Both the position numbers and the translations under genes were made by a program. A DNA stretch of 64,000 bases, taken from Diphasiastrum complanatum. Taxonomy: Eukaryota; Streptophyta; Lycopodiopsida; Lycopodiales; Lycopodiaceae. Location: positions 10,006,364 through 10,070,363 of the forward strand of contig CM055113.1 of assembly GCA_029204225.1 (NCBI GenBank), given 5' to 3'. Shown piece after piece: positions 1,282 through 64,000 of the stretch. The notes under the pieces were generated by a model. The model made no database searches. It saw only the letters and a program-made list of their open reading frames with translations, and was not told where the DNA came from. Positions within the stretch are counted from its first letter, which is position 1. Each line of letters starts with the position of its first letter.

Positions 1282-4200
1282 ATGGTGATGGAATCTCCCA
1301 AGGAGCACTTTCCGGCGGGTTTAAAAGTACTGGTGGTCGACGACGATCCAACTTGTCTGTTTCACCTAGACGCGATGCTTCGTCGCTGCTCTTACAGTGG
1401 TAAATATAATATCCTGTTCACATTTGTTTTTGGAATGGCATACGAATTAATTTTTTTGGCATTTAGTTTTTGAATGGCTTTTTAACGAAGTGTAGATCTA
1501 GGTCCACAGTAGCTGTGAATAGAATCCTTCGAGAACATAACATTGCTGCTCTTGGTATATATGGTTACTGTCTGGACTAAAGCAGTATTTGCTATGTTAT
1601 TTTGTAGCATTAGCCTTAAGTTGCATGACAGTAGAGGATCGACAACAAAAGCTCTATACTATCACCCACTTCATTTACGATGTTCTGGATTGGCTTTGTT
1701 GGTTGTTAGGTTGCCATCCAAAGTTTCTTTGGTCGCAAGTTCGAGCCTCCCCTTGGAAACCAAGAAGCATTTACGATGTTCTGGGAAAGAGCAGCTACTT
1801 GCTTGTGCTTTGTAAAACCTGCTTCTATTTTTTGTTTGAAAGAAATACGTGAGAATGCTTTCATTAGAAGGGAGATAATACTACTAGTATCTCTGCACAT
1901 CATAATAGGTAAACTGAATAAGTGTTCATTCCCTTCTTCATTGAATACAAAGCAGGAAAGAGAGAAGCATAGAACGGCCTCTGTTAATATTCTCGTTGGT
2001 ACCTTTAAGTGAAAGTTTGCTTCAAGCTCTGGGGGTGGTTTTTCTAGGGAGAATGAATTGGTGGAAAATGGTGAGCATCTATGGGTGGTTAGCACAACTA
2101 GGGTTATCGTAGGTGGGTAACAGAATAGTACAGTACTGGGTATGGAAAGGACCGGAAGAAATGCCAATCGGCAGGATAGGAAGACAATTTAGTGGGCTTG
2201 GACTTGGAGCGACTTGGCAGTGAAGGCAAACTTGAGGAGAATCTTGAGGCTGAGACTCTTGTGCTTCAAAACAGGGTGCCACTTTGCTTGGGGTGATGTT
2301 ATTGGCTTGAATCCTTTGTGCTTGTTAGAGTTGCAGAGAAATTTTTTAGTTCTGTGCCTGCAAACATCGATGCTTGGTTATTTCTATTTAACATTTTGCG
2401 GATATACGCAATCTTAGACTTTTGCTGCGTGCTTCCTTCTGAGGGCTCCGTAACCAGTGGGTTCATGGGAGCATATAGTCACAGAAGACTTGCTGAGGAT
2501 GCCTACGTGAAGTAAAGATTTGCACACTTATGTCATAACATTTGGTTTGTCCTATGCGTGGAGCTGTCTGAGACTTTGTGGGTGGACTCCATAAGGTTGA
2601 AGATGCAGCCCCCTTTATTACGTTGGGTACCATCCTAGACATAGCATGATATATGTGTTTATGGTTTAATATCTGTATTAAGGACTTGAAGTAGGATTTG
2701 CACACCGACTTCCCAGAACCTTTTTGTTATAAGTTTCATGAGTATGGAAAGGTTAACCTTTAGATTCTTGAAATTTTATGGTTGAGCTTTTATTTGCACT
2801 TCTCAATTGAGTTGAAAATTGTTTCACTGAATTTTTTGCTTAAGTCACTTGTCTATTTTCAGTCAATGATACAACCAATTTCATGCCAAATATCCTTCAA
2901 AGGAATCTTGGTTGGGTTAGTTACGAAAATCTTCTATATTGTAACAATGACAAAGGAAACTTCAATTCCTAGTTGGAGATGCACTTGAGCATTAGATTGC
3001 CATCGTCTAGTAGATACTTCGAGAACTGAGGAATTGAAAGTCATAACCATTTAACATAACAAAAATTCTTGGGAGCTTTATTAAATAATGAGATCGGTTA
3101 CAAGTTACTTTTTTTTTGTCATATTATGAGTATTTGCATGGCACAATCAAATCTATGAGAAACTCAAGTATGCCATCGTTTAGGATATACTTGGAGAATT
3201 GAGAAACTGAAAGTTATAACCATTCAACATAATGAGAATTCTTGGGAGCTCTATTGAATACTGAGATCCGTTACAAGTTATTTTTTTTTTGTGTCATATT
3301 TTGAGTATTTACATAGCACAAGTAAATCTCTGAGAAACTCAAGAAGTGCTATGTATTCTACTTACAGCTTGCAATAAGTTTTATTACAGGGATTTTATAT
3401 TTTAAAAGGAGGTTAGAGTACATTTTCTTGTTTTGCCTTTGCTCCTCTTTGTTTGTTCAACTGATTAGTGGATTCTACTGCATTGTGCTAATTGAAGGCA
3501 TAAAAGTTAGTGCTAGCATTGCCAACTGCTGATACTTTTCGGGTTAAATGAATGGGAATCTGGATGATATGTTATTTTTTTGGAATGACTGTTACATGTT
3601 GTGATGCTCACTTTCAGAGTTGAGTGCTTCATTTTTCTGTAGGTATTTTGTTTCCATAGAGCTTGGCATGAAGAGTCTCCTGATGAAAATCACAATTGAA
3701 ATGTGAAACTTGTCACTATTTGATTTGGCTTGTTGCTTGATAGTGATATTTATGGTTGGTTGTACTATAGCAAGCAGCAAATCTGATACATGGAAATGGA
3801 TGTGGTCTGCAGTTACGACATGTGGTCGGGCTACGAAAGCACTTGAAATGCTAAGAGAAAACAAGAAGAGATTCGATTTGGTCATCAGCGATGTTTACAT
3901 GCCAGATATGGATGGTTTTAAGCTTCTTGAACTTGTTGGCTTGGAGATGGACCTTCCAGTAATTAGTAAGTTACAAAATATTTTTTGAAGTTTACCTGGA
4001 CAAGTTACCAAAAGTTATAGCTGTTTTTTCTTCAGAAAGTTTATGTAATGGTTGCTTTCCAAAGTTATGCCTTCAGTCAAATATCATTACAGAATGTGAC
4101 CAGTTCTTTTTCATAAGGGTCATCCAAGTGTGTTGGGGATTAGATTGTCCATTCTCCAAGAAGTAGAGCCATCAATGAAATGGTTACATGATGATGCAGT

Positions 4201-19332: not shown

Positions 19333-20244
19333 TGTCGCAAAATTGCATGTGGGCGTGAGTGGTAGCAGAAGCTCGAGGACTGGAGCGCGACGTGTAGGAA
19401 CAAAAATGCAACAGTTAGCAACATAATTATTCAAGTGGAAGAATTCATACAAAATGTGCAAATGAACGACGTAGTAGTGAGAGAAAAATTGCACTATGAT
19501 AAATATCAACAGTGAGTACAATAGCTTGAAGTTATAACTTCAGCTTGCTGAGCGTAATAACGCTCGCTATAGAAAAAAAAATTGATTGAAAGAGAAATTC
19601 AATTAACTCAATTCAAAATTAACACTTACATAGCTTGAATCAGCTAATATATAGATTTACAAGTGTCGAGGAACAAAATATCTTACAAGCCTTTAATACT
19701 ATTTATGCCAATCTTAGCATATGTATAAAGTTGGTAACCGCCGGCCTTTGGAATATTTGTTTCTCCAGCTGTTTTTAGGATTGCTGATAAGTTAGCGACG
19801 TCGGTTAGTCAATGTAACAAAACGCAAAAAGCTGAAAAATTTGAAGGTGCCTTTGGACTGAAGGTATGCAACTCCTGAAGGTGCCCTTACACTAAAGGTA
19901 TGTAAATCCCTAAGGCGCCTTTAGATTCAAGGCAACGAAGAAGGCAAACAAGCCAAAAAAAAAGTGCCTTACACTGAAGGCAATGAAAAAGGAGAAGGTG
20001 CCTTAGATTTTAAAGACAGCGCAAAAGACGAAGGTGCCTAAAAATGATTTCTAAGGCATTCTGGCCACTTGGCCAGTGTGTCGCATTTTTCACTAAGGAG
20101 CAAAAAGGACGAAGGTGCCTAAAGATTGTTTTAAGGTGAAAGAAGGAAAATGTGAAGGTCCAAAAATATGAAGTCGGCCTTCGGATTTTCAGGATGCTCA
20201 TTACTTGAATGATTTGTTTAAGCCTGAGCATAAAAAATCTAACA
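19333..20244 (-). repeat. 3' LTR of the minus-strand copia element
   Basis: 912 bp, reading TGTTAG...GCGACA on the minus strand. It aligns along its length with 23862-24791; shared landmarks include CATACAAAATGTGCAAATGAACGA-like text near 19450 and a CTCAATTCAAAATTAACAC block near 19606. It contains several AAGGTGCCT-type words in 19840-20120. Confidence 0.92.
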
Positions 20245-20259
20245 CTTTCCCTTAATGTG
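20245..20259 (-). promoter_or_regulatory. Polypurine tract of the minus-strand copia element
   Basis: Minus-strand AAGGGAAAG sits immediately before the TGTTAG start of the 3' LTR, the expected position for priming plus-strand DNA synthesis. Confidence 0.8.
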
Positions 20260-21790
20260 GATCCTACCTTTGAACTTCAATTTTAACATATCGTTAAATC
20301 TGAGATGTTGCTCCTTTGATAGAGTCTTTGTGTCTGCTGCCATGTAATTTGTTTTGCAGAAGATCAATTCTACTTCCTTACTGTGCACTTTCTCTCTAAG
20401 GTAATGATACATGATTTCAATATGTCTGCTTTGAGAGTGAAATCTGAGATTGAGAGATAGTGCTATTGTGCTTTGATTGTCAAAATAGATTGTTGTAGGA
20501 AGTGTTTGTGAAAGATTGAGGTCTGCAAGTAGTTGCCTAAGCCAGATCGTCTCTTTGGTTGCATTTGTGGTAGCTATGTATTCAGATTCCATTGATGATA
20601 ATGCAACTGAAGTCTGCTTCTGGCTGTTCCATGAGATTGGACCTTGGTTGTATAAGAATACAAATCTAGAAGTTGATTTTGTGGTGTCGACATCTCCTGC
20701 CCAATCTGCATCTGTGTAGGCTTTAAGGATGTTGGCAGTTTGGCTATCTCCATAGCAAATGCTGAGAGTTGTCGTTGTTGGATGTACTTCATAACCTTTG
20801 TTAGCACTTTCCAATGAGCTATGGCTGGATTTGACAAGAACTGACTGAGTGTACTGACCGAATATGGAAGGTCTGGTCGAGTGCTAATCATTGCATATAT
20901 CAGTGAGCCGATGATGGATTGAAATGGATAGCGCTTCATCTCCTCCTTTTCTACCTCAGTTTGAGGAGACTGTTCCTTTGATAGCTTTAGTCCAGGCTCG
21001 AGTGGAAAGAGACTGGGTTTGTAGTTGGCCATTCCATACTTTTTCAACACGTTGTTGAGACATTGTTGTTGATTGATAAAGATCAGTCTGCTGGGTCGAT
21101 CTTGTTGAATATGGACTCCAAGACAACAGTGGGCAGAGGACCCATGTCAGTCATCTTGTATTCTTGGGCCAGCATGCATTTTGTTTCCTTCATCAGATTC
21201 AAATTATTACTGAATAAGAGTGTATCATCTACGTAGAAAGTGATGATGATGAAGTAATATGATATAGACTTGAAATAGACATTCGAGTCTACTGAGTTTG
21301 GAATGAAACCATTCTCTATCAGAAATGCGTTGATCTTCTGGAACCAGGTTCTAGGTGACTATTTCAGCCCATAGAGCACCTTGTGGATTTTGCATACAAG
21401 GTGTTGTTGCTTGTCGTTGAGTTTGTATCCCTTTGGCTGCTTCATGTAGATTTTCTCTTCGATGGTTCCATTGAGAAAAGCGGTCTGGACATCCATCTGG
21501 AGGACTTCAAGGTTTGTCGCAGCTACAAAGGAGAGGAGTAGGCGAATCGATGCATGTTTGACAACTGGGCTGAAGGTTTTTGAATAATCCAGAGATTGAA
21601 TCTGGAAAAAAGCTTTGGCGACTAGCCTGGCCTTGTAACAATTTAGCCTTCTTTCAACGTCATATTTTGCCTTGAATATCCATTTGCATGGAATTGGTTT
21701 CTGGTCCTTTGGTAGCTCAGTGAGTTTCCATGTTTGATTCTCCATAAGAGAATCGAATTCGGTGTCCATGTAGTAGGCTGGATCATCCAT
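20245..21790 (-). pseudogene. Copia reverse transcriptase and RNase H, decayed
   Basis: The reverse transcriptase begins near 21790 (NQTWKLTELPKDQKPIPCKWIFK-type start, then KTFSPVVKHASIRLLL and QMDVQTAFLNG). An in-frame TAG follows VLYGLK near 21361. The YVDD catalytic box (FYVDDTLLF) is readable at about 21220-21240. Frame changes separate it from RNase H in 20239-21050, where YTDADWAGD, SSMESEYIA and the DNQSTIAL box supply the three acidic residues. The RNase H frame ends inside the 3' LTR. Family RT/RNase H copies the element's RNA into cDNA in cytoplasmic particles; this one is broken. Confidence 0.88.
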
Positions 21791-22233
21791 AAATCTGGAT
21801 GGAGGTTGTTTGGACCTATTTGACCTTCTGGGTTGAACTTCATTCTTCTGATGTGGGTTGACTCATTGAGGTTCTAACTCATCGTATGAGTCAGCGTTGA
21901 GATTCTACAGCTGACTCTCTGGATCAAAATTGACTAGTTGTTCGATCCGTGAGTCAGAATTATCAACAGTTTTTCCTTTGTGGTCGATGAACTGGTCTCC
22001 CACAAAAATGACATATCTACTGGTGAATGCCTTCTCGGAACCAAAGATAAACAATTGAGAAATTGTTCTATCTCTGAGTGCTTAATTTGGTGGAAGGGTC
22101 GTATTGAGGATGATGATTCATGGGAGAGTGTTGATAGCATAAAGAAGAATTTCCCTAATTTTAGTTTCTAAGGATAGAAACAGTTTAAGGAAGCCCTTGG
22201 ACTATGTGGACTGAGTCTGAACTGAAGGGACTT

Positions 22234-22809
22234 CTAGCATGTTTGTTGATAATACAACTTTCGCATGGAGAAGTTGGCTTGCTGATTGAAGGTAGGTCTT
22301 GTACTAGACTCTGAGCTGACATTTGCTAAATACATGTTGAAATTAAGATGGCCAAGTTTGAAATGCCACAACATATCAATTGATTCAAAAGTGGTTGTGT
22401 GAAGAGCTTGACTGTAAGAAGAATAGCAATGGCTAAGTTTGTACAAATATCCGCTTCTTCTTCTATAGGCTAGAACCTTTCAGGATTTGTCAAGAATTGT
22501 GCAGCCTTTTGTATCGAATTCGACCCTCTAACCTGAATCGGTGATTTCGCTAACTGAGTGCAGATTCTTGGTCAGATTTGAAACGTGGAGAACATTGGAC
22601 AACAACTTGACTTCACCCTTTTTGAATTCAACTCTGACTGTTCCTTCTCCTTTGATTGAATGTGATGAGTTGTCTCCAAGTTGCACATCTCGAGAGTGGG
22701 TGAATGACTTGTAGTCTTTGAACCAGTCGCGATGCTGAGTTATGTATTGAGTTGCTCTGAAGCCTAGATACCAAGAATCAATATCTTGTTGTTCTCCGAC
22801 TTTGATCAT
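22234..22809 (-). pseudogene. Copia protease and gag-pre-integrase remnant with mutated catalytic motif
   Basis: The protease region reads WYLGFRATQYITQHRDWF where family members have D-S-G before ATQHIT. The catalytic Asp-Ser-Gly is therefore replaced by Gly-Phe-Arg. Downstream are LSNVLHVSNLTKNLHSVSEI and the pre-integrase text LWHFKLGHLNFN. The CCxC part and DDE core of integrase are absent before the sequence resumes with a post-integrase linker near 22150. Confidence 0.85.
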
Positions 22810-22899
22810 GAAAGCTGCTTCATCTTCTTCTTCTTCTTGTCGCTAATTTGAGTGACTAGCTGTAGCACTATGTGCTTGTTTTTAGAACTGCTTTTTCTT

Positions 22900-23718
22900 T
22901 TTGTTGTTGTACTTCAAAGTTTGGTAGTTCTTGATTTCATGGCCAGTCCTCTTACAGTATCTGTAGAAAAGTTTCTGCGCTAGCTGGAATGATGAAGAGC
23001 TTGAATTTGATCCCGAACAGGAATTTGGTCCAGACTACATATTGCTCTTCTTGTCAGTAGAGCCTTACTTTGTAGATCTCTTGGATCTAAACTTTTGATT
23101 TTTTTGAATACAGGGCTTGAGGATCCGATCATGAGCCTGAGGAGGATGGTGATCTTCTGATCTCCTCTTGTAGGAGTAGCGAGATTACTCTTGATAGAGT
23201 GAGGTGCTCCTGGGTAGAAATTGCCATTACCCAATTTTCATAGGCATTAGGTAGACTCTTTAATAGAGTCATGAGTGCATCGCAATCTTCTATGACTGAG
23301 CCGGTTGCAGTCATCTGCTCTCTAAGATTCTTGAAAGTGTTGAGGTGACTTGAGACACTATTTGCATCAGACATTCTGAGGGTGAAGAATTTCTTCTTCA
23401 GATGAAATTTGGATGTAACGTCTCTAATGTCGTAGAGAGTTGCTAGGATGTCCCATGCATCCTTAGATGTCTGAGCAGTACGTATGTGGCTGATCTGAGT
23501 GTCTTTGATGTTGAGGGTGATCATGGCAAATGCTTTGTCGTCTCTCAGTCTCCACTTGGTGATGACGGCTGCATCACCTTCTGGTTTGAGCTCTGTGCCA
23601 TCAACGATGTCCCACAGTTCTTTGGCTAGAAGCGTAGCCTTCATCTTGAATTCCAAAGATTGTAGTTATTTCCATCAAGTTTGTTGTCACTGAGAGATGA
23701 ACTAGATGATGGATCCAT
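22900..23718 (-). pseudogene. Copia gag (UBN2 type) with zinc-knuckle remnant
   Basis: ATG at 23718 (MDPSSSSSLSDNKLDGNNY), then a one-base loss near 23670 shifts frame and the main body continues 23656-23129 (WDIVDGTELKPEGD, ISHIRTAQTSKDAWDIL, AYENWVMAISTQEHLTLSR). The zinc knuckle near 22950 reads YCKRTGHEIKNY; the first Cys is changed to Tyr-rich text. The gag would form the element's virus-like particle. Confidence 0.85.
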
Positions 23719-23849
23719 TCTGGTTGAACGAGTTCGTTGGTAGAAACAACGAATGTCAAAATATTGTTGGTTGCGCGTTTGCTAGAAAGACGTCTTGGTA
23801 GAAATAAGACTGATAATCCGCAGTAGAAATGCAGATTACTGAAATGTCT

Positions 23850-23861
23850 GTTTTGATACCA
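23850..23861 (-). promoter_or_regulatory. Primer-binding site, initiator Met-tRNA
   Basis: Minus-strand TGGTATCAAAAC directly follows the 5' LTR end. The first eight bases match the usual plant copia primer site complementary to the 3' end of initiator tRNA-Met. Confidence 0.88.
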
Positions 23862-24791
23862 TATCGTAAAATCGTGTGTGGGCATGAGCGGCAGCGGAAG
23901 CTCGAGGATTGGAGTGTGGCATCTAGGAACGGAAACGCAACAATCAGCAGCAGAATTATTCAAGTAGAAGAATTCATACAGAATGCGCAAATGAACGATG
24001 CAGTAGTGAGACAAAAATTGCACTATGATAAATATCAACAGTGAGTACAATAGCTTGAAGTAATAACTTCAGCTTGCTGAGCGTGATAACGCTGGCTACA
24101 AAAAAAAAAAAAAAAAACTTAGATTGAAAGAGAAAGTCAATTAACTCAATTCAAAATTAACACCTACATAGCTTGAATCAGCTAATATATAGATTTACAA
24201 GTGTCAAGTAACAAAATATCTACAAGCCTTTATGTACAAAGTTGGTAACCGCCAACCGCCTTTGGGATATTTGTTTCTCCAGCTATTTTTAGGATTGCTG
24301 ATAAGTTGGCGACGTCGGTCAGCCAATGTAGCAAAACACGAAAAAGCCAAAAAAACCCGAAGGTGCCTTTAGGCTGAAGGTATGCAACATCTAAAGGTGC
24401 CCTTACACGAAAGGTATGTAAATCCCTAAGGCGCCTTTAGATTCAAGGCAGCGAAGAACGAAAAAGCTGAAAAAAGTGCCTTACACTGAAGGCAGTGAAA
24501 AAGACGAAGGTGCCTTAGACTTTAAAATCAGCAAAAAAGGCAGATTTTAAAATCAGCGAAAAAGACGAAAAAGATGAAGGTGTCTAAAAATGATTTCTAG
24601 GGCATTCTGGCCACTTGTCCAGTGTGTCGCATTTTTTGCTAAGGAGCGAAAAGGGCGAAGGTGCCTAAAAAAATGTTTTAAGGTAAAAGAAAAAAAATGT
24701 GAAAGTCCGAAAATATGAAGTCGGCCTTTGGATTTTCAGGATGCTCATTATTTGAATGATTTGTTTAAGACTGAGCATAAAAATTCTAACA
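23862..24791 (-). repeat. 5' LTR of the minus-strand copia element
   Basis: 930 bp. Its terminal dinucleotide on the internal side reads TA where the other LTR has CA, probably a point change. It aligns with 19333-20244 with scattered substitutions and a longer A-run near 24100. Confidence 0.92.
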
Positions 24792-24796
24792 TTCAC

Positions 24797-25465
24797 TTGA
24801 TATCCGTTACACTCTTTTAGCATATGAAATCCGTTAGAAGAATCTTCACTAGAATCTTCTAACAGGGGAAAAGAGAAAGTGTGACCGGAACTCTCGTCTT
24901 CGAGCGAGTGTTCGACTGAATTTCTTTTTAAAAGAAAATACATGTGTGGGCCAAAGTGACTTGTTTTTTTTTTATAAAAAATAACAAAATAGTAAAAAAA
25001 ACACACTTGGAAACACTAGCGTCGCCATGCAATTTTACATTTTTTTTCAAACCGAATTTTAAATTGAAGGCCGTGAATTTCTTTTGCAAAGAAACAAAAC
25101 TTCAAAAAAGGGAGGTGCTTCTCTCCCAAAATTCCTATAAAAATTGGAGTTGAATCACTTTCAGAAGAACATGCATATCTTTGTCAAATTTTCACCAAAT
25201 TGGCTGAAAATTGACTAAGAATTCATACAAAAAAAAACAAAGATTAATAGGTCTGAAATCAAATCAAAGCATTTTGAAATTTGAAAAAAAGACTATGAAC
25301 TATAAAAAAAAATACTACAAACACAAATAACTCTTCAAAACTAATGAGATTCACATAAGATCATGATGAATCATGGATCTATGGCTCTGATATCAAGAAT
25401 GTCATGTGTCAAATCCAAGCAAATAGAAATAAGTATAGAAGTAGTAATCAATTTCTGAACTAAAT
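24797..25465. other. Spacer with a degraded primer-site-like sequence
   Basis: AT-rich, non-coding. At about 25384-25397 plus-strand GGCTCTGATATCAA resembles the complement of a copia primer site with one or two changes. It may mark the edge of an older minus-strand element whose LTR was interrupted by the next insertion; this is speculative. Confidence 0.35.
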
Positions 25466-33990: not shown

Positions 33991-34685
33991 CTACATGGTA
34001 AGCAAATTGAGAATGTGAATCTTTGAATTATAATTTCATTGCACATGTACTGATTTTAAACTGAGCAATGCTTGAATCTCTAATATTGCAGCATATTTTA
34101 TGACATCATGCATCATTCTTTGCAAAAACTTATGGCAGTCTAAGTATGTGGTCATCACAAGGAATGGAGACATCACACTAGCAAGCAAGAGCAACATTTC
34201 ACCGAAATACACAACACAATGGAACATCTTCAAAAAATAATGACATCATACAACTATTTCAGTGGTTCTCTAGACATGCTCAAATTCGATACACAACTAG
34301 ATCAAAACTGTACTGGGTATTTCCTATCCACCTTCAACCCTAGATCCTAGCACATCAAGCATCAAAACAGATGAAGAGGATTAACATGTTGTCACGTAGA
34401 TATTTCTTCCCATGAGAGCGATAGCATAGTTCATAATCAAGCACATGCTTATGATCCACATCTAACTCTAACCATTAACACTACGACCCATTAACACTAG
34501 CAGTTAGCACTACTCAACAATGATAGATCTTACTCTTCTCTCTCTCTCTTTCTCTCTCACAAAAAGTATAATAAAGATAAACTCCAACAAGCATCAAATT
34601 CAAAAATTAGTAAATCCAAAGACAACATAGAGATAGAGAAATCTATTGGCCAGTCTTCACCTCCCTTATTATATGAAAGTTGCAT

Positions 34686-34820
34686 GATCAATTCAAACTA
34701 ATATCAAATGTTTTGTATGTTTCTAAAATTTCTATAAATCTGCTATCAGTAAGCAGAATCACTGATTTAGGTCATGAGGTAGAGTTCGAGTCTAATCAAT
34801 GATGAATTATCGATAGGACA
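34686..34820 (+). pseudogene. Copia protease/pre-integrase fragment joined to a foreign reverse transcriptase
   Basis: Reads LISNVLYVSKISINLLSVS and ITDLGHEVEFESNQ, then two TGA codons and IIDR. This matches copia text at 44940-45075 (VLYVPKLSTNMLLVSTI, VEFESNQCKIVDR). It stops at about 34820, exactly where a reverse transcriptase of another type begins in the same reading frame. Confidence 0.8.
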
Positions 34821-35690
34821 TGGGTTGCAGATATCTCTAAGTGCTATGAAAACATACCTTTAGATGGCACTGATGGGTTGAAAACTATCATGAATAAATC
34901 CATTACATATGCGTTCAAACATTCTAATAAGTTGTTTTCGAGTTTCAATTGGGAACTAGAAAGGGATGCCTTTAAATGGTCATGGAATAATGAAAAATCA
35001 AAGGGGTGGTACAATATCGATAAAAATCGCTTATGCTTGTGGAATGCCTTCCTAATAGACAATTGTATTGTCAGGCTAGGAAACAAAACCTAGAGACAGA
35101 TTCGTGGTATACCGATGGGTTTTTCATGCTCACCTACTTGGTGTAACTGGTACCTTGCGTTCTTTGAAGCTCAATTTATTAAAAGACTGGCCAAGTTAGG
35201 TCTTAGAAAGGATATGAATGTTTTCAATCACTCGTTTAGATATATTGATGACATTTGCTTCATAAATAATCCTCTTATTGATGCGTTTATGGACAAAAAT
35301 CAGATTAGAGTACCAGATAACCCTTTCTGGATTTATCCTCTAGAGTTTCTTGAAATCGAAAAAAAGTCTTGTGAAGCAAACACCACCAGTTTTTGAAACA
35401 TTTTGATTACTTTTAATCCTGGCACTGGTGTTTATTAGCTTTCAGAGTTTGATAAAAGAAGAGACTTACCTTTTCAATACTTACAGTGCATACATCTGGC
35501 TTCTAATAGGCCAGTCTACAACTCGTATAAAGTGATCATTTCCTAGGTTATCTCTGTTATGTATTGTTGCAATGATCATGATACTTTTATGAATCTTACT
35601 AGACGCTTTTCAAAAAAATGGTTTTATGAGGGAAAAGCTATGGCTTATCATTAACAAACTGCTTTTGACTAGTACTTTTCCTAGTTTTTC
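34821..35690 (+). mobile_element. Penelope-like (non-LTR) reverse transcriptase remnant
   Basis: One reading frame runs for 870 bases with only TAG/TGA/TAA point stops (35091, 35394 and later). It shows the reverse-transcriptase motifs in order: motif A with catalytic Asp (VADISKCYENIPL, from 34824), motif B (GIPMGFSCSPTWCNWYL, from 35106), motif C (FRYIDDICFINN, catalytic DD near 35247), then IYPLEFLEIEK and a conserved tail (EFDKRRDLPFQY, NRPVYNSYKVIIS). The YIDD box, G-I-P-M-G motif B and the tail differ from copia (YVDD) and from plant LINEs. They resemble Penelope-like and related reverse transcriptases of algae, protists and animals. No GIY-YIG endonuclease was found nearby. The RT assignment is firm; the Penelope-like assignment is from memory of the family pattern. 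Confidence 0.6.
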
Positions 35691-35796
35691 CTATGATCTA
35701 CCACAGTGTACTAAAGGTCTGATGGTGGGCAGTTAGCTATCCCTTATGGGGAGCTAACTGCCTCCTAAGGGATTCACTAGTTGTGGGTCAGTTGGT

Positions 35797-35962
<166 letters not shown>

Positions 35963-36300
35963 GGAAAATTCTCACCATTTTTGGTTGAGGGGGAGCTTCC
36001 ACGATACTTTCTATGGAACCACTATATGTAGCCTATTCTCGAAGGAGTTTCTTCTACTTTACGGTGAGAAGAAGTTTGGAAGACATGGCGCCCTCCCTGG
36101 CCTGAAGTTATCTGTTTTATACCCTACGGTATCTGGTTTTGATCATATCATGTATTTGCATTCATCTCTTGTATACTTATGAATGTTATCTGATGTGGTT
36201 GATGATAAATAGGAAGGTATGAATCCACTGTCCAATGATGGATTAGTGAGGGTTCATATTACCATTTTTGGCATGATTTTTATTCCATATTCTATCCGTT

Positions 36301-36550
36301 GTCCAGCGGTGGACCAGCGATGAAGCTCACTCAGTAATGGAGAGTCTTGTTGAGGATGGATAGGTTGTTGTCCAGCGATGGACCTGCAGCGATCTATCAT
36401 GAGCAAGATAATCAAAATATTGATACTTATGGGTAGCTGTCCAGCGATGGACCAAGATTTCCTTCCGCATACTTCAAAAAGCATGATAATGATAGCTATA
36501 CATCGTGTGTGATAGATTGAGGCAAGTGCTTCATTATGACCAGCGATTAA
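36301..36550. repeat. Dispersed copies of GTCCAGCGATGGACC
   Basis: Near-identical copies occur at 36301, 36370 and 36439, with a partial CCAGCGAT at 36540. Arms GTCC and GGAC are complementary, so each copy is a small hairpin. Similar degenerate words recur at about 40020 and 40240. Confidence 0.6.
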
Positions 36551-37259
36551 GCATTTCCTATCTCATAAATAGTTATACGGATTCAAACTCCATATCATAG
36601 ATATGAATGGATGATAATGCTAAAGGACAACATGAATATGTGGTTGTTCCATAAGTAACTAAGGGTTACATACATACTCCATTTCAAAGTTTTCCAGATT
36701 TCTAAATTCCTCAATTTCCACATTTCCAAGTTCACCTCTCCAATGGCCTAAATTTCCGAAGTTTTCCGTTTTGTTTTGGACTTTGATGGTCAGAGTGAAA
36801 CTTGGAATGGTATTCACTCATGAGTTGACCTTCACTCAAAGTGTCATGTTGAAAAACTGACAGCTGCAACATCATCTTGCTCTTTGAATTTGTGGTCAAA
36901 CACCATTACTTGGACACTGCATGTTAGATTCTTGATGTGCATTCTACATTTGGTTGTGGACTAGTTTTGCATGTTGAACATCTTCATTATTGTGGCCAAT
37001 ATTCTCTTTCGTTCGATCTTCAGTTGTTTTAACCTACTTGTCCTCATAACCAAATTGCTCTAGTTGTTGAGCCTACCCATTTGATTCGTGAACTTTCTCT
37101 TGCTTAGGAATTTACAGTTGGTAATAATCACTATAGAGAGTTGCAACTTGACTATCATTTGATTGACTCCCATGGTTACCATGTGTATCATAAGTTAACT
37201 CATCCAATTGACCAATATATGTATCTAGAATTTGTTCTGTTAATTGACCATAATTTTTT

Positions 37260-42714: not shown

Positions 42715-43768
42715 TGTTGGATTATTCTCTTTCTTACCATCAGTTTTAATCTTCATCCATTGATAATCCAGTTCTGCGGATTTTCTCGTGTGTTTACATA
42801 GTCTGCAGAATTACAAGTGTTTTTACACACTTTGTAAAAATACACGGAGTTTACGACAGTGTCGCATTTTTTGCTTGACAGAAATCTCATATAAAATCGT
42901 AGTGTCGCATTTTTCACTTTTTTCAAAGGGCCTCAAATGTTAAGGAAATGACACTGGCAAAGTGTGGGGCAACCCTGAATGAGATTTAAGGGCACCTCCT
43001 TCTTTTTCACGTTTTTTGCCTTTTTTGCAAAAAACCCGACAATGTCGCTTGTGCTGTTTTAGTTCATTTCTGTAGAACTATAGCTTTGGTTCATTTATGC
43101 AGACAGAACGTTTACGGCCAATTTTACCACTTATCAGTAATCAACGACAAGGACCAGATGGATGCCAGCTAATCACCAGCCAACTGGCGATCGCAATTGA
43201 CGACCTAATTTCTTAGTATAAATAGTTGTTCATATTCACACAGTTTAATGATCAGATTTCAAGATTATCAAAAGCATTTGAATAGTTAGCTCTCTCTCTC
43301 TCAAGCCTGTGAGCTTGAACACTCCTGAGCATCCTAGCTCACTTCTTAGAGTTGTTTTAGAGATTGCTATTGTGCTACTGCTTATCAGTATTGCGCTTAA
43401 TTCAGACTTTCATTTTAGCTGCTCAGAGATAGCATAGAATACCCGGCTGCGATCCGCAACTTATTGTACTCATTTAGTTCTATTATGTTTTCATATTGAA
43501 TCAATACTATCCTTCATTGCATTCAATTTTCGTCTCAGAATGTATGCGTTTATGTTTTTCTTTGTGATTTCAACGTCAGTTACTATAAGTTCAAATGTGA
43601 TTTCTATCACTATTGTTTTGTTTGAAATTGATAGGCATAGTCATGCATTGTGAAAGAGAAAGATAGTTTATTTTGCCGTGCATGAAAAGTTTTCTTTCTA
43701 GACACTCAAATCTTTTTCATTCGTTTCTTTTCGAGCTAGACCTATCTTTTGTACACCACTTTCCGACA
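42715..43768 (+). repeat. 5' LTR of the nested copia
   Basis: 1054 bp, TGTTGGATT...TTCCGACA. It lacks about 60 bases present in the 3' LTR near 48785-48860, so it has a deletion. Confidence 0.93.
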
Positions 43769-43780
43769 TGGTATCAGAGC
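43769..43780 (+). promoter_or_regulatory. Primer-binding site of the nested copia
   Basis: TGGTATCAGAGC immediately after the 5' LTR, complementary to initiator tRNA-Met. Confidence 0.92.
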
Positions 43781-43973
43781 TATTTCGCTACTACTTTATC
43801 TGATTCCAACATGATATCAGAGCGAAAGCTCTAATACTTGATATCTTTCGCGATATCAAATTGATATCATACTCTCAGTTCTTTTCAACCTTTCAGTATC
43901 AGAGAATTGATTTTCTCTTGTTGGCATTACCACATCTTAGCGTCATCGATATAATCGACAAACTAAGTTCCAA

Positions 43974-44705
43974 ATGGATTCTCAAAGTAAAGTCGGTCTT
44001 ATCGCAGACAAACTAAATGGATCCAATTATCATATGTAGAAATTTAAAATGAAGACCTTGCTAATCGCCAGTGACTTGTGAGATGTTGTTACAAGTACAA
44101 AAGTGAAACCTGTAGACGATGACTCAAAGTGAAAATCGAAGGATGGTAAAGCTCTCGCGCTTATTATCCTCAATATATCAGATACAAAAACTGGACACAT
44201 AGCTGAAGCTAAAACGTCGAGACGTTTGGGACATTTTGAACTCACTATATGACGTGAGGGATGTAACTACTAAGTTACATCTACGAAGGAAATTTTTCAC
44301 ATTCAAAATGTCTACTGGTGATTCTCTTTAGAGTCACATTAACCAGTTTAAGAATCTCTTGCAACAGATGGCTGTTGTTGGATCAGTCATAGACGATCAA
44401 GATGCAATTATGACATTGCTTTCAAGCTTGCCCTCTACATATGAGAACTGGGTGATGATCATATCGACACATGCAGATTTAACTCTTACTAGAGTTATCA
44501 CTATATTGCTGCAAGAAGATAATAGAAAAAGTCAAGACACCAAGAAGGCTGCAATGAATCAGAAGCCGACTCAAAGTCAAGAACAATCATCGAATTCACA
44601 ATAGAAGAAGAAGACGTTTTGCAGGTATTGCAAGCGCAATAATCATGAGATCAAGGATTGCCAAATTCTTCAAGCAAAGAATATAGCCAAGCAATCTGAT
44701 CAATA
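43974..44705 (+). pseudogene. Copia gag with multiple Trp-to-stop changes
   Basis: The ATG at 43974 opens MDSQSKVGLIADKLNGSNY. Where the relative at 26395 has Trp, this copy has TAG (about 44037), TGA (about 44079) and TGA (about 44131). The body continues at 44359 (MAVVGSVIDDQDAIMTLL, YENWVMIISTHADLTLTR), and the zinc knuckle near 44625 reads CRYCKRNNHEIKDC. Confidence 0.88.
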
Positions 44706-44714
44706 AGCAAACGC

Positions 44715-45910
44715 AGTTTCATCATCTCCCTAAGTTGAAGTGGACGAAGGCGCATTCATGGTCAAAGATCAAAGCATATTTTTGGATGATTCATGGTTTC
44801 TGGATTCTGGAGCAACTCAACATATGACCAATCAACATGAGATCCTCAACTCCTTACAGCATAAAGAAATTTGTTCATCTAAGTGACAATAACACTTACA
44901 ATATTGAAGGTGAAGGTAATGTAAGACTGCGGTTCCAACATGATCAATTTAAACTACTATTAAAAGTTTTATATGTTCCTAAACTCTCTACAAATATGTT
45001 ATTAGTGAGTACAATTACAAATTTAGTTCATAAGGTAGAATTCGAATCTAATCAATGCAAAATTGTTGATAGGAGTAATAAGATCCTTGCACTCGGCAAG
45101 AGGCAGGCTAACTTATATAGATTGGCACATTGTTATTTTGAGTCTAGTCAAGTCTTAAAAACCTCTGTTCTAGTCAATAGTCAATAAAGCATTACTATGG
45201 CATCATCGCTTAGGACACTTGAATCATGCATCTGTTTGAACATGTCCAGACAATCCATGGTTCTTGATCTTGACTATCCTTCTGGTAAAGTCGACCTCCA
45301 TGTCTGTCATAGCTGCATCTTTGGAAAGCAAGCTAGGATTCCTTTTAGATCAAACCATATGCATGCAGCAAAAGATCTGTTAGATTTATTCATATAGATA
45401 TATGTGGATCTATGCAAACTCCCTCATTGCTAGATGCAAAGTATTTCATTACCTTTATTGACAAATTCTCTAGAAGAACAGCTGTTTATTTTATTAAACA
45501 GAAATCAGAGACTTTCATCAAATTTAGACAATTCAAAGAGCATGCTGAGAATCAAACTAGCAAACAAATCAAAGCACTGAGGTCAGATAACAAGGGAGAA
45601 TACATCTCCAACGAATTCAAGGACTATTTCCTTAACAAGGGCATTGATCAACAATATACTACCTCCTATTTGCCTCAGTCAAATGGTCTTTCTGAGAGAA
45701 AGAACAGAACCTTAGTTGAATCGGCAAAGTGCATGTTATCACATGCGACACCTTTAAAGTCCTTCTGGGTTGAAGTTGTTTCAACAACAACCTATATTCA
45801 GAACAGATGTTCTACTAAAGGCCTCTCAAACAAAACACCATTCGAAGTTTGGATAGGTACCAAGCCTTCTTTATCAAACTTACGAGTTTTTGGACGTACT
45901 GCTTTTGCAT
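44715..45910 (+). pseudogene. Copia protease, pre-integrase and integrase, broken
   Basis: Protease WFLDSGATQHMTNQ with intact DSG (about 44797) ends in a frame change. Pre-integrase text (VLYVPKLSTNMLLVSTI, ILALGKRQANLYRLAHCY) runs to 45187. The Cys pair CHSCIFGKQARIPF follows near 45307. The integrase core in 45412-45912 has its three acidic residues in ITFIDKFSR, LRSDNKGEYIS and SNGLSERKNRTL, ending at a TAG after GRTAFA. Intact, this enzyme would insert element cDNA in the nucleus. Confidence 0.9.
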
Positions 45911-46125
45911 AGATACCTCATGATCTCAGGAAGAAGCCCGACTTCTAGAGTATCAAGTGTGTTTTCATCAGCTACACTACTTCAGATCAAGTCTACAAGT
46001 TGTTCGATCCCATCGAGTCAAAGATATTTACTAGCCGGGATGTCATCTTCATCTAAGATCAGTTTCAAGACCTCAAAGGAAAGGGCAGTTCCCATGTAGC
46101 TGACCTATAAGATTCTCCTGACGCT

Positions 46126-47932
46126 TTGAACTTTCCAGTTTCTCAGTCGACTATTCCTATTGAAGGTCCAAGCTCCTCTACTCTTGATGAACAACAAATC
46201 AACGACAGATCAGAAGACGATAATGCTGCAGATCAGCAACTACAGTATGATGGAAATAATCAACTTCCTGTATTACCTAGAAGATCTTCAAGGACTAGCA
46301 GACCACCTAACCGGTATATCAACGAGTTTGCAGCTTATCTTGTTCAGGAACCGATATTTGTCCAAGAGGCACTCAATTAGCTTGATTCAGATCTCTGGAA
46401 AGAAGCTATGGATAAAGAGTATTCATCTCTTATCAAAAACCAAACGTGGACAATTGTCGAATTACTTGCCAGCAGAAACGTAGTTGATTGCAAATGGATT
46501 TTCAAAGTCAAGTACAATGCAGATGGAAGCATCAACAGAAGAAAGGCACAACTTGTAGCCAGAGGATTTTCTCAGGTATGCAACGTCGATTACACTGAGA
46601 CTTTTAGTCCAGTAGTCAAGCATTCTTCTATTCGACTCTTGTTATCATTTGTCACTGCAGCAGATTTGGAAATACATCAAATGGATGTACAGACAACATA
46701 TCTCAATGGAGTTATCGAAGAAGACATCTACATGGTGCAACCCAAAGGTTATATTATCGAGGGTAAACACAATCATGTGTGTAAACTCCATAGGGCACTT
46801 TATGGCTTGAAGCAATCTGCTCAAGCATGGTTTCAAAGGACCAATACTTTTCTTATTGATCACGGCTATACACCTAGCTCTTCAGATTCAAACGTTTACT
46901 TCAAATCTGTGCATCAGTCTTTTATCATTATGACTTTGTACGTGGATGATATTTGCTTTTCAGCAACAGTACCGATTTGATAAAAGAAGCCAAGACAATG
47001 CTATCTTCCGAATTCGACATGATCGATCTGGGCGAAGCTCATTTCTGCCTTGGTATACAAATCCATAGAGACAGAAAACAAAAGTTGGTCTACAATACAC
47101 AACAAAGGTACATCTACAACATGTTAGTTAAATGTAATCTGAATAGCAAGTTAGCTCTCTCACCAATGGAACCAGACTCAAATTGTCAAAGGACCAGTGT
47201 CTCCAAACAATTCATGAGAAGCAGTAGATGCGTGAGTATCCTTACCATTCTATCATAGGATCTCTTATGTACGCCATGATATGTACCAGGCCAGACATAG
47301 CTTTTGCAGTAAGCTCTTTCAGTCAGTATATAAGTAATCATAGCATAACACATTGAGAGGCTCTTATCAGAGTCATGAGATATCTTCAAGCTACTATGGA
47401 CTTTTGCATTTGTTATGGAGTAGTTGGCAATGACAAACTCAATTCACTCAGTGTTTACACAGATGCGAGTTGGGCAGGAGATGTAGATACTCGAAAATCC
47501 ACTTCTGGATTTACATTCTTCCTCAACAATGGTCCAGTTTCTTGGAATAGTCGCAAGCAATCTTCGATAGCTCTATCTTCCACTGAATTAGAGTATATCG
47601 TAGCCTCTAAGGCTACAAAGGAAGCAATTTGGTTGAGAAACTTCCTCTCAGATATCGGTTTGAATCAATATGCTATGACGATATTATTTTGCGAAGATCA
47701 AAGTGCCATCACTTTATCAACCAACCCTAGATTTCATTCCAGGAGTAAGCACATTGAACTGAAGTATCATTTTGTCAGAAGCAAAGTTCTCAACGAAGAA
47801 GTCAGATTGCAGTACTGTAGAACGCAAGATATGACAACAGATGTTTTTACTAAAGCATTAAGTTTGGAGTCAAACAAAAGATTCTATGTAGAACTAAGTC
47901 TGAAGGTCAAGGCATTCAAGGATTTAGATTAA
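46126..47932 (+). pseudogene. Copia linker, reverse transcriptase and RNase H, broken
   Basis: A linker rich in Ser/Asp (46126-46380) leads, after a TAG at 46378, to the reverse transcriptase 46408-46980: WTIVELLASRNVVDCKWIFK, ETFSPVVKHSSIRLLLSF, MDVQTTYLNG and YVDDICFSA. A frameshift follows near 46960. The middle part is in 46953-47258, and RNase H in 47375-47932 carries YTDASWAGD, SSTELEYIVA and EDQSAITLS. The stop at 47930 abuts the polypurine tract. Confidence 0.9.
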
Positions 47933-47939
47933 GGGGAAG

Positions 47940-49053
47940 TGTTGGATTATTCTCTTTCTTACCAATTGATGAATCGGTCTTAATTTTCATCCATTGATAA
48001 TCCAGTTTTGTGGATTTTCTCGTGTATTTACACAGTCTGTAGAATTACAAGTGTTTTTCCATAGTCTGCAGAAATACACGGAGTCTATGACAGTGTTGTA
48101 TTTTTTGCCTGACAGAAATCTCGTGTAAAATCACAGTGTTGCATTTTTCTGCTTTTTCCAAAGAGCCTCAAATGTTAAGGAAATGACACTGACAAAGTGT
48201 GGGGCAACCCTAAATAAGATTTAAGGACACCTTATTCTTTTTCGCGTTTTTCGTCTTTTTCACGAAAAATCCGACAATGTCGCCTGGCAGAGCTACAGTT
48301 TTGGTTCATTTATGCAGATAGAACGTTTACAACCAATTTTATCACTTATCAGCAAGCAATGACAAGGAACAGATGGATGCCAGCTGATCACCAGCCAACC
48401 GGCAATCGCAATTGACAACCTAATTTCTTAGTATAAATAGTTATTCATATTCACACAGTTTAACGATCTGATTTTAAGATTATCAAAAGCATTTGAATAA
48501 TTAGCTCTCTCTCTCTCTCAAGCCTGCGAGCTTGAACAATCCTGAGCATTCTAGCTCACTTCTTAGAGTTGTTTTAGAGATTCCTATTGCGCTATTGCTT
48601 ATTAGCATTGCACTTAATTCAAACTTTCATTTTAGCCGCTCAGAGATAGCATAGAGTACGTGGCTTCGATCCGCAACTTATTGTACTCATTTACTTCTGT
48701 TACGTTTTCATACTGAATCAATACTATCATTCATTACATTCAGTTTTTGTCTCAGAATGTATGCGTTTCTGTTTTTCTTTGTGACTAATTATTTGTCTGA
48801 TAAATTTCAATGCTTAATTGTTTGGCTATGTAATCACTGTAGTACTAGTGATTTCAAAGTCAGTTACTATAAGTTCAAACGTGATTTCTATCACTATTGT
48901 TTCGTTTGAAATTGTTAGGCGTAGTCATGCATTGTGAAAGAGGAAGATAGTTTATTCCGTCATGCACAAAAAAGTTTTCTTTCTAGACACTCGAATTATT
49001 TTCATTTGTTTCTTTTCGAGCTAGACCTATCTTCTGTACACCACTTTCCGACA
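47940..49053 (+). repeat. 3' LTR of the nested copia
   Basis: 1114 bp, TGTTGGATT...TTCCGACA, preceded by the polypurine tract AAGGGGAAG. Confidence 0.93.
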
Positions 49054-62920: not shown

Positions 62921-62938
62921 GGGGTTTAGGGTTTAGGG
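62921..62938 (+). promoter_or_regulatory. Telo-box-like TTTAGGGTTTAGGG
   Basis: GGGGTTTAGGGTTTAGGG lies about 60 bp before the hAT B start codon. Two TTTAGGG units equal the plant telomere repeat and contain the telo-box known from leaders of some plant genes; here function is inferred only. Confidence 0.6.
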
Positions 62939-62998
62939 CGGGAGAGAGCTTGGATTTCCGTGCTTCTGTGTGTGTGCGTGCGAGAGAGAGAGAGAGAG

Positions 62999-64000
62999 AT
63001 GGCTGCTCGTCCCATTTGGGATGAGGTGGAGGTCATGCCCGACAAAAAGTGGCATTGCCCTTTTTGTCGTAAGCAGTTCACAGGGAACGCCTCTCGGGTT
63101 CGAGCACATCTGGGGGGTTTGCGAGTCCGACCCACGGGCGGACGCTATGGGATCGGCATTTGTATGGTCATCCCCGTTGCGGAGAGGGCTCGCATTATGG
63201 AGACATATTCTGAGATAGCTGCTGAGCCCGGCGAGCTGTCCACAGATGTCGCGGACTCTATTTCTACTGGTGCACCCACTGCCACCGACCCTGCCACTGG
63301 TACACCCAGTGCCACCGCCCCCACCGTCGCATCTGCACCCGCCACTGCCGCTGCATCCGCATCCGCACCCGCCCCCGCCACCGCCACCGCCACCGCCTCC
63401 GCCAGTACTCCCCATGGATCCACGGCCTCCACTGCTGCACCTACGCGTCTGCCATCACCGTCAGATCTGCACGACCCGTCCACATCCTCCGCTTTCGCAC
63501 CTGCACCTATGCCACCACCTCCACATCCGCATCGTCCATCCGCATCCTCCCAGCCATCCACATCCCGAGGCACCAGACAAATGTCCATGTCGGGATCTTT
63601 CAGAGAGGGGCAGCACAAAGAGGCCACCAGGACCATAGCACAAATGTTCTATGACCTGAACCTCCCATTTATCATGGCATCATCCCGCATCTTTGGAGAG
63701 GCTATCTCGAAAGTTGCAATTTGCGGGCCCGGCTACACACCACCCACAGCCGACGCACTACGAGGCCCTTTGCTCCAGGACCGGGTTGCATCAGTCAGAG
63801 AGAGACTGGCCGCACTACACGAGGCTTGGGATAGATACAGCTGTTTCATCATGGCTGATGGGTGGACTGATCGTCGCAGACGTCCACTCATCAACATGAT
63901 TGTTTTTAGTTGTTACGGTTCCATGTTCTTGCGCAACATCGACGCCTCCGAGGCAGGGAGAGTGCATTCGGCCGAGTACATTTACGGCATCATTCGCGCG
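62999..64000 (+). CDS. hAT-family transposase B, intact N-terminal part, runs off the window
   Basis: ATG 62999 opens 334 codons without a stop to the window edge, so the ORF has no 3' end here. Residues 7-55 form a BED-type zinc finger (WDEVEVMPDKKWHCPFC, C20/C23, H37, and C55 or a nearby residue as fourth ligand). Residues about 85-175 are a low-complexity Ala/Thr/Pro/Ser linker. Residues about 190-334 match DUF659 of plant hAT transposases: TIAQMFYDLNLPF, FIMADGWTDRRRRPLINM (from residue 283) and GSMFLRNIDASEAG. The catalytic and dimerisation regions should follow beyond 64000. Codon use is GC-rich, unlike the AT-rich surroundings. Telo-box and GA repeats precede the start. An ORF this open suggests recent activity or a domesticated hAT gene. 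Confidence 0.85.
   Translation, partial: MAARPIWDEVEVMPDKKWHCPFCRKQFTGNASRVRAHLGGLRVRPTGGRYGIGICMVIPVAERARIMETYSEIAAEPGELSTDVADSISTGAPTATDPATGTPSATAPTVASAPATAAASASAPAPATATATASASTPHGSTASTAAPTRLPSPSDLHDPSTSSAFAPAPMPPPPHPHRPSASSQPSTSRGTRQMSMSGSFREGQHKEATRTIAQMFYDLNLPFIMASSRIFGEAISKVAICGPGYTPPTADALRGPLLQDRVASVRERLAALHEAWDRYSCFIMADGWTDRRRRPLINMIVFSCYGSMFLRNIDASEAGRVHSAEYIYGIIRA

Follow-up and report, generated by a model that had tools for sequence, protein, structure and literature searches.

A decayed reverse transcriptase (RT) frame beginning at 34821 of the window (the whole 64,000-nucleotide stretch of plant DNA analysed here) raises the question of what kind of retroelement left it, whether relatives of it persist in the host genome, and how such an element could have inserted. 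We conclude, with a probability of roughly 0.7, that positions 34819-36681 are a dead member, shortened at its 5' end, of a Penelope-like plant retrotransposon family, an assignment drawn from the anatomy of its copies and from the lack of a copia RT domain rather than from an RT tree.

The window copy and its host family

Re-translation of the plus-strand frame from 34821 bore out the reading of RT motifs A, B and C, together with KRRDLPFQY and NSYKVIIS, at 34821-35690. All three motifs stand in one frame, which is interrupted by seven stop codons in 290 codons, a feature that the original prediction does not mention. The features at this locus are listed below.

34303..34676, plus strand: dispersed repeat of unrelated sequence, CT-rich at about 34533-34558, element absent
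34683..34818, plus strand: copia-type fragment adjoining the truncated 5' end; flank, outside the element
34819..35690, plus strand: palm region of the RT with motifs A, B and C and the sequence beyond them, truncated on the 5' side immediately ahead of motif A, seven in-frame stops
34830..34862, plus strand: motif A, DISKCYENIPL (frame translation)
35106..35156, plus strand: motif B, GIPMGFSCSPTWCNWYL (frame translation)
35241..35252, plus strand: motif C, YIDD (frame translation)
35454..35543, plus strand: conserved region downstream of motif C, KRRDLPFQY (35454-35480) ... NSYKVIIS (35520-35543)
35800..35960, plus strand: (CT)80 tract 3' of the RT frame
35965..36681, plus strand: opening part of the 3' pseudo-LTR, about 74-92% against other copies

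The start originally placed at 34821 was correct to one or two bases, as homology with other copies sets in at 34819-34820. Position 35690, by contrast, is not the end of the element: the (CT)80 tract follows at 35800-35960, family sequence persists beyond it to 36681, and several other copies extend further. At its 5' junction the window copy meets a copia piece instead of a CT tract, and on the 3' side it is incomplete. Within its pseudo-LTR part a hairpin-like motif, GTCCA(N4)TGGA, occurs four times (36230, 36301, 36370 and 36439) at a spacing of 69-71 bases, and these four copies are a possible RNA structure.

The copia-type fragment at 34683-34818 is 80% identical to 44939-45074, which lies within the window's own copia element (42715-48784), an element with LTR-like ends at 42715-43567 and 47940-48784 (86%) and with RVT_2 (5e-54) and integrase domains. 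Flanked by repeats that are 82% alike, a probable second copia element lies at 19335-24801 in minus orientation. Elsewhere in the window, 62930-64000 holds a frame matching DUF659 (3e-16) whose start looks BED-like by eye, a hAT-type transposase running off the window. Frames at 4100-6513, which we take to resemble a plant type-B response regulator, gave no Pfam match at E ≤ 0.001 in the two stretches scanned.

Against Pfam, the window RT matched RVT_1 with E 5.1e-6 and 26.8 bits, the curated cut-off being 29.6. RVT_2, the criterion for Ty1/copia, was absent from the window RT by Pfam, whereas the window's own copia RT matched it at 5e-54; a Ty1/copia identity was rejected on this ground. The best library matches were generic bacterial or phage RTs (NCBIfam, E 0.0038; PHROGs, E 2.2e-5). 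Profiles of six and three copies gave no PDB matches; DBF4 entries matched by a single sequence (E ≥ 0.55) did not appear with the profiles and were rejected as chance. No relative of the window RT was confirmed in viral contigs and no exact pattern match occurred there, while genome contigs gave no match to one exact degenerate pattern of this RT. Two animal RT sequences used as baits found nothing. A single-sequence fold of the window frame was unusable (pLDDT 34.5).

A search of the host genome produced a match at all 40 places scored, with 100% for the window itself and 88-93% for the 39 others; these places are a subset of 1,664 candidates in the 1,744,706,496-base (1.745-Gb) assembly. 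Four same-contig pairs (C2, C4, C6 and C23) have equal scores and may be duplicated segments, so that distinct insertions are somewhat fewer than 40. Copies were read in detail at 20 of the 39 other places, 9.9 kb each. Loci L012 and L013, which form one of these pairs, are 99.8% identical over nearly the whole fetched stretch and are counted once wherever loci are called distinct, which leaves 19 distinct copies in this set. All 20 fetched copies are interstitial, lying at least 1.6 Mb inside contigs, whose ends need not be chromosome ends.

These matches dispose of the reading of the locus as a single-copy RT-related host gene (rvt type) or as contamination. Nothing was found in its favour. 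Forty scored places on many contigs, decayed copies and joins to copia pieces all stand against it, and copy number excludes it to a degree that we regard as close to complete. Contamination, which the original prediction had named as a possible refutation, is itself refuted because the host genome contains many related copies.

The copies differ from one another in the RT region by a mean of 7.8% (2.6-11.0%, pairwise), and the two pseudo-LTRs within a locus are separated by a K2P distance of 0.022-0.076 in the five loci measured. The tree of copies has long tips and mostly short inner branches, a pattern as after a burst.

Anatomy and coding past of the unit

All loci were mapped to the copy L028, and element positions are given in L028 numbering relative to 34821 = 0. 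One unit is about 6.2 kb long, running from a body start, GCACCC, at -2639 to an end, GTGTAT(CT)n, at about +3552. Its internal features are as follows.

about -2544 to -1142: ORF1, about 467 codons by coordinates
about -1188 to +924: ORF2 (RT), overlapping ORF1 in the -1 frame
about +979 to +1140: inner CT tract, then about 2.5 kb without evident coding up to the 3' end

Self-blast revealed direct terminal repeats within loci (L028 -3694..-2639 equals 2500..3552 at 92.5%) and, in L014, a second RT copy in tandem. Upstream of the body stands the 3' part of another unit, and in 12 distinct loci the two are linked by 6-16 bases of CT. The direct terminal repeats, or pseudo-LTRs, arise from the tandem presence of a second unit that is truncated. 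An inverted pseudo-LTR piece was seen in one of the 20 fetched loci (L022 2765-4317 against L028 3719-2189, minus strand). The CT tract at the inner position is present in 18 of 21 rows (the window plus 20 loci), L012, L013 and L024 being without it.

The 5' ends, readable in 17 distinct loci, fall at scattered points; L010, L016 and L017 run off the fetched piece. Many loci continue upstream past an indel when mapped to L028, and some individual 5' ends may be later deletions. Three of the 17 (L009, L011 and L021) begin within the CT tract preceding the pseudo-LTR, and the complex locus L015 may be a fourth such start. At the other side, the end of the 3' pseudo-LTR is reached by eight rows of 21 (seven distinct loci), 12 rows stop earlier and L014 runs off. 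In every one of the seven distinct loci with a 3' end (L010, L012, L015, L017, L026, L027 and L028), the sequence after the pseudo-LTR, where a short Penelope-like 3' 'tail' extension would stand, is a CT tract followed by unlike flank.

Two loci carry additional material. In L015, the stretch -4435..-3423, counted from that locus's own RT start, is about 73% similar to the pseudo-LTR and belongs to an older related family beside the copy. L016 is cut off from about +1284 by sequence that by eye is like a LINE-type RT (LFGLYIDELE...).

The hallmarks of Penelope-like elements, as given in a curation guide (PMC8969392) and in PMC3846280, are 5' truncation and a truncated tandem copy that forms a pseudo-LTR and is sometimes inverted. 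The examined copies display both 5' truncation and tandem pseudo-LTRs, and L022 displays the occasional inversion.

The distribution of variants across codon positions carries information on the coding past of the family. In the RT, counted over 20 aligned copies after L013 was dropped as a near-duplicate of L012, variants common to at least three copies fell at codon positions as 22/18/52, and rarer variants as 79/88/95 (chi-square p = 0.002). Regional counts, with L013 and the window left out, gave shared variants of 15/10/30 in the N-terminal part of ORF2 (18 copies), 18/17/48 in the RT (19 copies), 10/7/16 in ORF1a (14 copies) and 7/3/6 in ORF1b (15 copies; too few to say). The two pseudo-LTR controls gave 27/24/25 (16 copies) and 48/59/51 (17 copies). 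Shared variants concentrated at third positions, with the rarer ones spread, point to purifying selection on ORF2 in the source elements followed by neutral decay of the copies. The coding signal of ORF1 is weak.

The compared C-terminal part of ORF2 has no stop in 2 of 21 rows (L017 and L023). ORF1 has no known domain, and no copy was seen with ORF1 open throughout. Fifteen of 20 loci share the position of its stop, and 11 of the 15 have the -1 frame opening exactly 15 codons upstream of that stop; in L014, L015 and L016 the ORF2 frame is open past the ORF1 stop to the end of the examined piece. Within the overlap upstream of that stop, an ATG in the ORF2 frame is found in L012, L013 and L015, the other 12 loci having none. 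ORF2 could be made by frameshifting, splicing or re-initiation. A 3'-splice-like TTTTAG stands just before ORF1, which carries CRCGDKC; ORF2 carries CEC before the RT (HSCECL...GHVIS), a segment that we take to resemble the CxC-GHV stretch of the Chlamys/Naiad clade.

Taken together, multiple copies, purifying selection on ORF2, truncation, pseudo-LTRs and an inverted piece give the original prediction, that an old member of a Penelope-like lineage was active here, support at the level of anatomy.

CT tracts, endonuclease searches and a possible insertion route

The dispersed repeat at 34303-34676 is informative on where the family lands. At L011, the left part of a relative of this repeat and a CT tract precede the element on its 5' side; at L026, a CT tract and the right part of a relative follow it on its 3' side; and L009 contains another unoccupied copy of the repeat. 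Identities in this comparison are 71-78%, and the repeats are paralogous copies, not an allelic empty site. Because the unoccupied copy has the CT tract, the tract predates the element, at least in that dispersed repeat, and the family probably targets CT microsatellites. Against this reading, neither an exact empty site nor a target-site duplication was seen; tract length cannot separate target from element, since CT tracts grow and shrink. The inner CT tract was rejected as the target of the window copy, since many loci carry the same element sequence beyond it.

The original prediction also proposed looking in the host for longer copies carrying a GIY-YIG domain. Longer copies exist, as the unit of about 6.2 kb demonstrates, but Pfam found no GIY-YIG in the scanned pieces: none in the ORF1 and ORF2 pieces of single broken copies (E ≤ 1), none at the start of ORF2 (E ≤ 5), none in the L009 pseudo-LTR frames and none in the part missing from L009 (three L028 frames and one L015 frame). 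Matches to other families in these scans were at chance level (E 0.045 and above). As the search used Pfam on pieces of single broken copies, a diverged or split GIY-YIG could be missed. Neither the window nor the 8 of 20 loci scanned held an Rfam match reaching the gathering score, hammerhead included. The hammerhead ribozyme is not known to be universal among Penelope-like elements.

An insertion route can be proposed as follows. RNA from a tandem unit, with a (CU)n 3' end, would pair with (AG)n where a CT microsatellite is nicked or broken, and the 3' end of the (AG)n strand at that point would prime reverse transcription. Copying would often stop early, leaving a 5' truncation, and the inner CT tract might sometimes close the 5' junction by microhomology and so set the start of the pseudo-LTR. 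Tandems would arise when a new insertion enters the CT tract at the end of a copy already present. The nick itself might be made by an endonuclease that escaped recognition, or breaks already there might serve.

Among published systems the nearest analogue is the telomeric Terminon, in which 3' repeats pair with chromosome ends (PMC6431247). The one Penelope-like element studied in vitro begins copying within the RNA, at a site without homology to the cut DNA (PMC11167929), which argues against a pairing model for the whole Penelope-like class. The complete scheme, namely an endonuclease-free Penelope-like land-plant element whose (CU)n RNA end primes on breaks in internal CT/AG microsatellites in the manner of its telomeric relatives, and whose RT is made via a -1 frameshift from ORF1, is speculative and, as a whole, unlikely.

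Class placement and comparison with known systems

The pointers to a subgroup differ. The CxC, microsatellite bias and lack of a canonical hammerhead point to Chlamys/Naiad, and the two frames without an endonuclease point to the endonuclease-less members. Craig et al. are said to have reported in 2021 that the Chlamys/Naiad clade has a microsatellite bias, a green-lineage range and no canonical hammerheads, all of which would suit the present family. A Chlamys/Naiad-type element, with an N-terminal GIY-YIG, CxC and RT and with an endonuclease that is too diverged for Pfam or lies in an unscanned exon, is a serious candidate at somewhat less than even odds. The CEC before the RT is like the CxC-GHV stretch of that clade, and the splice-like TTTTAG just before ORF1 speaks for the same type; the lack of a GIY-YIG in the scanned ORF1, ORF2 and pseudo-LTR pieces, and the position of ORF1 in a different frame from ORF2, speak against it. 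We hold more tentatively, and consider rather doubtful, a two-ORF endonuclease-less element for which breaks in CT microsatellites take the place of telomere ends. PMC6431247 describes endonuclease-less members in terms that suit two frames lacking a recognised endonuclease, and a 3' repeat end matching the landing site parallels the Terminons described there. Such members are, however, largely confined to chromosome ends according to PMC3846280, whereas each of the 20 fetched copies sits 1.6 Mb or more from the ends of its contig, which does not fit a location at chromosome ends with telomeric repeats; the use of ORF1 as coding sequence is also weakly supported.

Both of these are forms of the Penelope-like reading. 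A divergent LINE-like (non-LTR) element would explain the 5' truncation and the weak RVT_1 match too, and it gains some room from the fact that the Penelope-like class here rests on anatomy, not on an RT tree. LINE-like ancestry is nevertheless improbable: no A-rich 3' end occurs in the seven distinct loci read, and the family shows direct terminal repeats, units joined in tandem and in inversion, and a 3' end of CT.

A plant family that has many copies, CT landing sites and no recognised endonuclease would connect the telomerase-like RTs of chromosome ends with chromosome-internal ones, and it allows a test of whether breakage at a microsatellite can stand in for an endonuclease. Should the host be a lycophyte, the family extends the known lycophyte elements rather than the seed-plant ones. 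No report of a CT-ended plant family was recognised in the openly licensed literature, among the matches listed.

Chlamys elements (N-terminal EN+; Craig et al. 2021) reportedly have CxC before the RT, pseudo-LTRs, tandem and inverted joins, a microsatellite bias and no canonical hammerhead. The present family is like them in these respects; it is unlike them in that no GIY-YIG was found here and in that ORF1 and ORF2 lie in different frames. Chlamys is described from Ectocarpus in PMC12477816. In the relevant portions of PMC9033089, PMC10473749 and PMC12477314, land-plant Penelope-like elements are named from spike moss and conifers only. Among these are the endonuclease-less elements of Selaginella moellendorffii, Pinus taeda and Picea abies (PMC9033089), those of Selaginella having a telomeric link (PMC12477314). 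The present family resembles them as an RT element in a land plant with no recognised endonuclease and two frames, and differs in the interstitial position of the 20 fetched copies and in complete 3' ends that lead into CT tracts. Dryad, the conifer Penelope/Poseidon group, is EN+ according to PMC9033089 and PMC10473749; it shares with the present family the status of a plant retroelement of Penelope-like kind, 5' truncation and direct or inverted repeats, and differs in being EN+ where no GIY-YIG was found here. Athena and the Terminons of rotifers, which are telomeric, offer the likeness of a 3' end of repeats matching the landing site and may work alike (PMC6431247); the present family differs from them in that its site is an internal CT microsatellite and not a telomere, and in that no hammerhead was found here.
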